From the NCBI RefSeq assembly GCF_900156875.1, contig NZ_LT707409.1, positions 10,923-74,922 of the forward strand: a DNA stretch of 64,000 bases. The letters run 5' to 3'. The notes beneath the pieces were generated by a model. That model did not search any database and was not told where the DNA came from. It saw nothing but the letters and a program-made list of their open reading frames with translations. The stretch comes from Robertmurraya dakarensis. Its GTDB lineage: Bacteria > Bacillota > Bacilli > Bacillales > Cytobacillaceae. The translations under genes and the position numbers were made by a program. Shown piece after piece: positions 41,324-45,645 of this stretch. Positions within the stretch are counted from its first letter, which is position 1, and the number at the start of each line of letters is the position of its first letter.

Positions 41324-41388
41324 GGGCATAAGGAGAACTGGGATGGATTTTGTCTTTTTGTTGGTATGAAGGACATTATCTTTACAGG

Positions 41389-42030
41389 AACCGTCTTTAT
41401 GGTTCGGATGAAAGCCGGTTTTACTGAGTTTTTTGCGGGACTCGGTCTTCATGGCCAGGATGAGAACCGCTGTTGTTGATTTCCTTGAAAGAACCGGTCA
41501 TCATGGCCGGAATGAGAACCTATCTTTCTGATTTCTATGCGAGAGCCGGTCTTCATGGTCGGGATGAGAACCAATATTACTGAATTTTTTTGCGGGAACG
41601 GTCTTCATTGATAGGATGAAAACCGGTTTTACTGAGTTTTTTGTGGAATTCGGTCTTCATGGCCGGAATGAGAACCGATGTTACTGAGTTTTTTTGCGGG
41701 AACGGTCTTCATTGATAGGATGAGAACCGGTTTTACTGATTTTTTTTGTGGAACTCGGTCTTCATGGCCGGAATGAGAACCGATGTTACTGAGTTTTTTT
41801 ACGGGAAGGGTCTTCATTGATAGGATGAAACCCGGTTTTACTGATTTTTTTGTGGGACTCGGTCTTCATTGCCAGGATGAGAACCGCTGTTGCTGATTTC
41901 CTTGAGAGAACCGGTCATCATGGCCGGGATGAAAACCTATCTTTCTGATTTCTATGCGAGAGCCGGTCTTCATCGGCAGAATGAAAGCCGAATTACCAGA
42001 AATCTTTGTGGAAGAGATCTTCATGACCAG
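41389..42030. repeat. Tandem array of about 12 degenerate 52-bp palindromic units
   Basis: Units start at 41389, 41441, 41493, 41545, 41597 and on to 42014, spaced 52 bases (one 53). Each has a pseudo-palindrome of the form GGTCTTCAT-ggCCGgg-ATGAGAACC, then a T-rich linker such as TTACTGAGTTTTTTTGCGGG. Two unit types alternate in the middle, and units 2-4 (41441-41596) recur as units 10-12 (from 41858), indicating block duplication. Together with flanks it fills the 812-base gap between the exporter and the DUF421 gene. Short minus-strand frames inside it are by-products of the repeat. Confidence 0.88.
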
Positions 42031-44081: not shown

Positions 44082-44249
44082 ATGATGATGAAAATGATTG
44101 AGAACCGCATTAATGAGTTGAAAAAGGAATTGGCAGGAACTGCGAATGCAACAGGGATCAATAGTGTTGAAACATTAAATTGCAGTCAAAAGCTAGATCA
44201 GCTAATCACCATTTACCAACTGCATTTAAAAGACCGTACTGATGAATAA
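44082..44249 (+). CDS. Spo0E-family aspartyl-phosphate phosphatase
   Basis: A 55-residue protein with the Spo0E pattern: IENRINELKKELAGTAN in helix one and the signature SQKLDQLITIYQ (SxxLDxLI) in helix two. Family members dephosphorylate Spo0A-P and delay sporulation. The ATG at 44082 follows AGGTGAG; two further in-frame ATGs follow at once, so the exact start may shift by one or two codons. The stop lies 13 bases before the HMA-like start, one operon, under the Fur box. Confidence 0.85.
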   Translation: MMMKMIENRINELKKELAGTANATGINSVETLNCSQKLDQLITIYQLHLKDRTDE

Positions 44250-44262
44250 GGGAGTGACATTC

Positions 44263-44508
44263 ATGTATAAAGCGATATTATATGTACCGGGAATTTGCTG
44301 TGTTGAAAGTTTTCAAGTGATTGAAGAACTGTTAAAAAGCTTAACTGGAATCAACTCTGTTAGAGGGACATTGCCGAAAGGGAAAATTGTAGTGGAGTTT
44401 CAGCCAAGTAATGTAAGTACCATGGATCTCGTCAAGATTATCGAAAAACAAGGATATCCCGTGGTGAAGAACACACAAAAGGAAATGAACTTTGATATTT
44501 ATAACTGA
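44263..44508 (+). CDS. HMA-like small protein with altered metal motif
   Basis: An 81-residue ferredoxin-fold protein that reads like a heavy-metal-associated domain (VIEELLKSLTGINSVRGTLP, KIIEKQGYPV), but the usual MxCxxC loop is PGICCVES, with vicinal cysteines instead of CxxC. It may bind metal differently or not at all. AAGGGAGTGA stands before the ATG at 44263. Co-transcribed with the Spo0E-like gene behind a Fur box, so linked to iron. Confidence 0.75.
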   Translation: MYKAILYVPGICCVESFQVIEELLKSLTGINSVRGTLPKGKIVVEFQPSNVSTMDLVKIIEKQGYPVVKNTQKEMNFDIYN

Positions 44509-45076: not shown

Positions 45077-45613
45077 ATGAAATTTAGAATTTTTGCGGTT
45101 TCTTTGCTAACTTCCATTGTACTAGCAGCTTGCAGTGGGGAAAGTGCAAATGAAGGAAACGCGACAACAGAAAATGAAACACCAAATATTAAGGAACTGG
45201 TGAATGATTACAGTGTTGGGAATATAGAGGATCAGACTGCCTCTATCACATCACAGGAACTCATCGTGACCGACTCAGATGGAAAAGAGACAGCTTATAA
45301 CCTACCTGAAGAGGAGTTCTTTGTATCGATTGCTCCTTACGTCAATGAGACCCATCCCTGAACGAATCATAGCTTGACAGGTTGTCAAGGAGAGATGGTA
45401 AAAGAAGAGTTTGACGTGTATATTAAGGATACTGATGGCAATGAAATTTTGGCTGAAAAGGTAACGACACAAGATAATGGTTTTATGGATCTGTGGCTGC
45501 CAAGGGATCAAAAATATGTCATTAAAATTCAGCAAGAAGATAAAGTGGCGGAGTCAGAGATCTCTACCTTTGAAGGCGATGCTACTTGCATTACGACCAT
45601 GCAATTAATGTAG
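45077..45613 (+). CDS. cueP: CueP-family copper-binding lipoprotein with in-frame UGA (possible selenoprotein)
   Basis: Read through one UGA, the frame gives 178 residues: lipobox signal (VLAACSGES), then the CueP domain with FFVSIAPYVNETHP-U-TNHSLTGCQGEM and the end CITTMQLM. CueP binds copper outside the membrane through three conserved cysteines (96, 104, 172 in Salmonella as I recall). Here they fall at U95 (UGA 45359-45361), C103 and C171, the same spacing. The downstream half is intact, and codons before and after are in one frame. Either UGA encodes selenocysteine or a Cys codon mutated to stop. If it is a stop, the product is 94 residues and inactive. Confidence 0.85.
45359..45389 (+). 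promoter_or_regulatory. Candidate bacterial SECIS element after UGA
   Basis: UGA at 45359-45361, eleven bases, then CTTGACA (45373-45379), loop GGT (45380-45382), TGTCAAG (45383-45389): a perfect 7-bp stem, 17 nt in all. In E. coli fdhF the SECIS is likewise an about 17-nt hairpin starting 11 nt after UGA, with GGU in the loop. The hairpin codes for conserved residues SLTGCQ, so chance contributes, but the full pairing is notable. Confidence 0.6.
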
Positions 45614-45645
45614 AAAAAAAGCACCTGGATAGGGTGCTTTTTTTA
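45613..45645 (+). terminator. Terminator of cueP
   Basis: AAAAAAAGCACC and GGTGCTTTTTTT around a TGGATAG loop, directly after the cueP stop. Supports reading the gene as one unit to 45613, since no terminator follows the UGA. Confidence 0.88.

Follow-up and report, generated by a model that had tools for sequence, protein, structure and literature searches.

The gene studied here lies in a 64,000-nt stretch of Robertmurraya dakarensis, contig NZ_LT707409.1, referred to below as the window, and its features are collected in Table 1. The cueP frame contains one stop only before its end, the TGA at codon 95. The read-through product scored 148.2 bits against Pfam PF21172 (cut-off 27) and 195.5 bits against NCBIfam NF038094, the model of the CueP family (cut-off 60), while the strict CueP metallochaperone subgroup NF038095 was not reached (134.8 bits versus a cut-off of 195). 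The protein is a member of the CueP family outside that subgroup. Scored alone against PF21172, the portions on either side of the TGA reached 34.2 bits (upstream) and 95.7 bits (downstream). Alignment to Salmonella CueP (4gqz) gave an E value of 9.3e-26 over residues 53 to 177, with equal spacing of the conserved cysteines and no gap between them; position 95 lies eight residues ahead of Cys103. The first cysteine of the Salmonella protein is numbered Cys96 here by derivation, as Cys104 minus 8. A single cueP copy was found in the host genome.

Table 1. Features of the cueP locus, in window positions
Feature	Position	Strand	Basis
cueP reading frame of 178 codons and a stop	45077-45613	+	frame reading, Pfam, NCBIfam
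Lipoprotein signal with lipobox LAAC (Cys19), start of the cueP frame		+	lipobox judged by eye
In-frame TGA at codon 95, proposed to encode selenocysteine; aligned with the first conserved Cys of THPCxxHSLTGCQGE	45359-45361	+	
SECIS-type hairpin CTTGACA-GGT-TGTCAAG, 7-bp stem, GGU loop	45373-45389 (loop 45380-45382)	+	
Codon 103, the second conserved cysteine (Cys104 in Salmonella CueP)	45383-45385	+	
Third conserved cysteine, codon 171	45587-45589	+	
Terminator-type hairpin with A and T tracts, immediately 3' of cueP	45614-45644	+	folding

These results bear out an earlier note, made from the letters of the DNA alone, which had described a single UGA at the first invariant cysteine of an otherwise intact CueP frame, properly spaced cysteines 103 and 171, and a downstream half free of decay and of further stops. 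The terminator that it placed at the end of the gene was also recovered, as a hairpin with a folding energy of -16.4 kcal/mol (z -4.78), though a simple consensus terminator scan flagged none after cueP, probably because the T run of this hairpin pairs with its A run.

No conserved operon was seen around CueP in flanks of up to about 2 kb in the host's family and of about 1 kb, or the default, outside it. The commonest neighbor clusters were a sigma-54 activator and an MFS transporter, at 19 loci each; less frequent were a DsbD-like membrane protein (7 loci) and a P-type ATPase (6 loci). In the window itself, a small heavy-metal-associated (HMA) protein is encoded beside cueP at 44242-44508 and carries adjacent cysteines (GICCVE) at a place where CxxC is usual. 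A tandem array with a 52/104-base unit occupies 41387-41991, with about 11.6 copies of 52 bases and 73% matches. Finally, a Cys-containing CueP-like stretch (L219) was found on the Staphylococcus equorum plasmid pKS1030-2 at 2501-2863, unannotated as a gene in the plasmid table and located just upstream of a copper-translocating P-type ATPase.

We then turned to the selenocysteine (Sec) machinery of the host genome, an assembly of 5.48 Mb in 11 contigs that is rated 100% complete and 4.32% contaminated. It encodes selA (564.5 bits, cut-off 267.9), selB (361.9 bits, cut-off 242.25), and selD (400.2 bits, cut-off 125), together with a tRNA-Sec (57.1 bits, cut-off 47) whose anticodon is TCA according to ARAGORN. 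All four genes that the earlier note had proposed to look for are thus present, and the lack of selA, selB, or selC that it had named as telling against its reading was not observed. The host selD (L023) has an in-frame TGA of its own at the U of TKAGUGCK, the site at which Sec-containing SelD proteins carry Sec; a possible hairpin (AACTCAG-GTT-CTGAGTT), judged by eye, has its loop about 33 nt past that TGA. TGA remains in use as a stop in the window, where it terminates 7 of the 42 stop-to-stop frames that reach 200 codons, and a general reassignment of this codon is therefore unlikely.

To see how the codon behaves in relatives, we read all 109 CueP loci (110 rows) from the 104 CueP-bearing genomes among 193 of the host's family. 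The aligned codon was TGA at 91 loci, including a frame-broken gene (L137), and TGT or TGC at 17; at the remaining locus the gene was broken and without the motif. An order sample of 397 genomes, some of them of the host's family, held 88 with CueP; 32 of the 81 loci read outside that family had TGA, 48 had Cys, and one was decayed. By the family labels of the sample, these 32 genes are spread over 12 families besides the host's. A class sample of 398 genomes added three TGA genes from a single family outside the order (f206), and a phylum sample of 398 genomes yielded no TGA-type CueP outside the order. In total, 126 CueP genes from 14 families carry TGA at this codon, and 83 carry Cys, 65 in the family and order and 18 elsewhere. 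L136 (no motif) and L193 (decayed) were placed in neither class; four short fragment rows of the order search, two broken rows of genome G1200, and the class Cys rows without a locus were left out. The alternation of UGA and Cys among homologs that the earlier note had suggested looking for is thus found.

The TGA-type proteins have a median core identity of 62% and a minimum of 44% in 600 random pairs, indicating that the TGA has persisted through long divergence. In the TGA genes, the conserved motif is present on both sides of the TGA, and in all 126 of them the TGA stands only at the first conserved cysteine, never at the second or third. Of the 123 TGA genes of the family and order, 121 have no further TGA in the protein core, the exceptions being the frame-broken L137 and L188. 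A lone TGA in an otherwise open frame could come from a sequencing error or, in this strain, from a nonsense mutation or pseudogene formation, and true decay does exist in the set (L193, with TAG and TGA at other codons, L136 without the motif, and L137 with its broken frame), but this explanation has practically no probability left and is refuted by TGA at the same codon in independent genomes of 14 families, by the conservation of the downstream part, and by the nearly fixed synonymous sites of the hairpin described below; the supposition that this strain alone was mutated does not agree with TGA at most family loci.

Several loci deserve mention in their own right. L193, the second CueP copy of a genome without selA (G350), has a TAG upstream, a TGA at the second cysteine, and a tyrosine at the first. 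Both Sec and Cys forms of CueP are found in the genus g1, and two genomes have both forms (L115 and L122 in G045; L171 and L140 in G224), and another genome (G182) has three Sec-type copies (L073, L079, and L111). One of these, L073, is identical to L072 of a different genus (G007) over 60 bases starting at the TGA, and 3,744 of 4,387 ungapped positions of the two are equal, a likeness that hints at transfer or shared mobile DNA.

We next compared the codon with the presence of selA, which was found at the curated cut-off in 172 of the 193 family genomes and in 46 of the 76 other order genomes with CueP. TGA genes occurred with selA in 121 cases and without it in 2, and Cys genes with selA in 26 cases and without it in 39, in a table that excludes the three f206 genomes, L057 to L059, and L219. 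The association had a Fisher p of 2.6e-6 in the family and of 4.1e-10 outside it, both values ignoring kinship. The only TGA genes without selA came from two draft genomes, 81% and 80% complete (G180 and G183), and both have a tRNA-Sec. Conversely, a search for tRNA-Sec at E 1e-8, in which 15 genomes were examined, gave no match in any of the eight family genomes that combine Cys-CueP with a lack of selA.

The second element put forward in the earlier note was a 17-nt hairpin with a perfect 7-bp stem and a GGU loop, 11 nt past the UGA, and it is seen exactly there (Table 1). According to section 5 of PMC13188914, the consensus of bacterial SECIS elements (bSECIS) has an apical loop of 3 to 9 nt, an upper stem of 4 to 16 bp, a G within the first two positions of the loop, and a UGA-to-loop distance of 16 to 37 nt. 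The cueP hairpin agrees with it in loop (3-nt GGU), stem (7 bp), loop G, and spacing (18 nt). The consensus also has an energy limit (MFE of -7.5 kcal/mol or lower), which the hairpin passes only with flanking bases, its energy varying with the stretch folded, from -5.9 (17 nt) through -7.3 (32 nt) and -9.3 (38 nt) to -9.7 kcal/mol (44 nt). Folding the 47 nt from the TGA on gave -9.7 kcal/mol (z -2.73), a value equaled in 3 of 200 shuffles. A hairpin of seven pairs at the spacing seen in cueP followed 5 of the 2,578 TGA trinucleotides on both strands of the window, that of cueP included, and in two of these five a G stood among the first two bases of the loop. The hairpin is unusual against this background, which by itself is not decisive. 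An Rfam scan of the window at gathering scores gave no match, and a scan of the cueP gene at loose E values returned no SECIS family, all loose matches being below the gathering scores.

Across the relatives, the full hairpin (7 of 7 pairs and a GGU loop) was present in 125 of the 126 TGA genes versus 5 of the 83 Cys genes, tying the SECIS-type element of the earlier note to the TGA form. It was found in all 123 TGA genes of the family and order and in two of the three f206 genes; the third (L238) has one mismatched stem pair, from a CTG-CAA mix. Among the five Cys genes, three (L039, L040, and L217) retain the TGA-type letters unchanged, and two, both from Paenibacillus (L058 and L059), include one G-U pair. 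A sixth Cys gene, L155, has 7 of 7 pairs with the loop GGG.

The stem also encodes Leu-Thr-Gly-Cys-Gln, amino acids that are conserved in both groups, and the test thus lies in the synonymous sites. In 118 distinct TGA rows, Thr was ACA in 113 of 113 cases, Gly was GGT in 118 of 118, and Ser was AGC in 89 of 89, versus 24 of 58, 21 of 64, and 29 of 55, respectively, in 64 distinct Cys rows. Just beyond the hairpin, the following Gly codon varied at its third base in both groups alike. The Leu and Gln codons, which are coupled through the stem, were TTG-CAA in 93 and CTG-CAG in 12 of 105 distinct TGA rows and mixed in none, and a coupled GCA-TGC change occurred twice among the distinct TGA rows. 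Sliding the stem partner by 1 to 3 nt left at most 57% of the cells paired versus 100% in the true register, and none of 1,000 shuffles of the 3' letters reached the observed pairing (shuffle mean, 98.3%). Four Cys genes with a motif variant (L201, L206, L207, and L218) are part of the selA table and of the 83 Cys genes and are absent from these codon-coupling, slide, and shuffle counts. Overall, the pattern supports selection on the hairpin as RNA, together with the TGA.

Since the rows are related, the counts of TGA and Cys genes are not independent. The gene tree comprised 186 rows and was built with the site itself removed and with L137 and L219 left out; the best tree implies 22 switches of the Sec/Cys label, and its well-supported branches imply at least 7. 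The shortness of the gene leaves a relatedness-aware test of hairpin versus Sec with only seven independent pairs, of which about five agree, none oppose, and two are equal (p 0.0625, not significant); for selA versus Sec, about 3.4 of four independent pairs agree and none oppose (p 0.25, not significant). Two of the Cys genes with an unchanged hairpin, L039 (G006) and L040 (G184), belong to Sec-decoding genomes, and the third, L217, to a genome without selA over the cut-off (G520). These intact hairpins are apparently relics of a recent change from Sec to Cys.

A different decoding of the TGA has to be weighed here, namely, near-cognate suppression or partial read-through that puts Cys or Trp there and may act as a regulated switch between products of 94 and 178 residues. 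Sec insertion competes with termination, and some truncated product is therefore likely, as such a switch would have it. Nevertheless, TGA-type CueP tracks selA and tRNA-Sec, its hairpin is of the bacterial SECIS type, and the cores of nearly all TGA genes are free of further TGA codons, which together make this alternative very improbable. The data instead support the view that the UGA, as a conserved sense codon, takes the place of Cys, that it goes with the Sec machinery, and that the hairpin has been selected alongside it. We are thus highly confident, from comparative sequence evidence, that the UGA at codon 95 of cueP is read as selenocysteine and that the product of the gene is CueP in selenoprotein form, as the earlier note had proposed.

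In the mechanism we propose, SelD would supply selenophosphate, from which SelA would make Sec-tRNASec (anticodon UCA). SelB would bring this tRNA to the ribosome and bind the hairpin downstream of the UGA, so that codon 95 would be decoded as selenocysteine and translation would run on to the end of CueP. The lipoprotein would presumably be exported and placed outside the membrane, where Sec95, Cys103, Cys171, and neighboring histidines may together form a copper site. There, the selenolate would most likely be the soft, redox-active residue, serving as a Cu(I) ligand, in Cu(II) reduction, or in a reversible Se-S bond.

What Sec does in this protein is less firmly indicated than its insertion. 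Most likely, Sec would serve in the copper site as a soft ligand, a redox partner, or both, and we consider it probable, with moderate confidence, that Sec acts directly in that site. The chief rival is that Sec is mainly a redox catalyst, in peroxide or Cu(II) reduction or in a Se-S bond with Cys103 or Cys171, and not a metal ligand. We regard this as a serious but unproven contender that falls somewhat short of even chances. In its favor, PMC13188914 regards most uncharacterized selenoproteins as likely to have redox functions, the TGA always stands for the same one of the three cysteines, and the title of one cited paper speaks of ROS scavenging by Salmonella CueP. On the other hand, according to portions of PMC7558416, the Cys and His residues of Salmonella CueP cluster at the copper-binding site, and according to portions of PMC13201067, its Cys104 forms a metal-thiolate and is required for the copper-resistance effect, suggesting that Sec adjoins a metal site. 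Returning to the role in the copper site, we tentatively put forward the stronger version that Sec95 is a direct copper ligand. CueP would then hold a genetically encoded copper-selenolate center beyond the cell membrane, retained in many families of the order and repeatedly exchanged with Cys as the Sec machinery is lost or the selenium supply changes.

The Sec form would be common rather than rare in the host's family, tying selenium use to copper handling, and it may help to explain why Sec decoding persists in these bacteria. Because both forms share a genus and, twice, a genome, CueP also offers a natural test of Sec versus Cys in one metal site, which would be a natural copper-selenolate site if selenium binds copper. 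Gene callers that halt at TGA are expected to break a protein of this kind into two pieces. The May 2026 review PMC13188914 reportedly spans, in its Table 1, 119 prokaryotic selenoprotein families and subfamilies, among them families cited to Haft and Tolstoy 2025; CueP is absent from the rows in the available portion of that table, and the terms CueP, NF038094, and PF21172 were not found in the review. No relevant paper combining CueP with selenocysteine or selenoprotein was found in the open full-text literature (5.39 million papers), and the word copper was not found in the available portions of the deep-Sep paper (PMC12013277) and of the 2016 selenoprotein survey (PMC5029168). Sec-CueP thus looks like an unlisted selenoprotein family, and RefSeq CueP records may already carry U.

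Several known systems resemble parts of what we describe. The hairpin is like the bacterial SECIS consensus, as given in PMC13188914, in its 3-nt loop with a GG start, its 7-bp stem, and its distance from the UGA, but it is modestly stable alone, and its sequence is nearly fixed across the set and also encodes LTGCQG. Two further selenoprotein groups are listed in Table 1 of the same review. The selenoprotein form of the SO_0444 family Cu/Zn efflux transporter (NF033936, UxC) likewise combines metal handling with Sec; however, it is a transporter with another family model and another Sec motif. The CopZ-family (2Fe-2S)-binding selenoproteins (cd10141, GxUC or CU) are related to copper chaperones but differ from CueP in domain model and in Sec motif. 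The closest counterpart by family is Salmonella CueP (4gqz, PF21172, NF038094), for which copper binding and copper tolerance are reported in portions of PMC7558416 and PMC13201067 and which shares the three conserved cysteines with equal spacing. Unlike it, the protein described here has a lipobox, and a codon proposed to specify Sec takes the place of the first cysteine.
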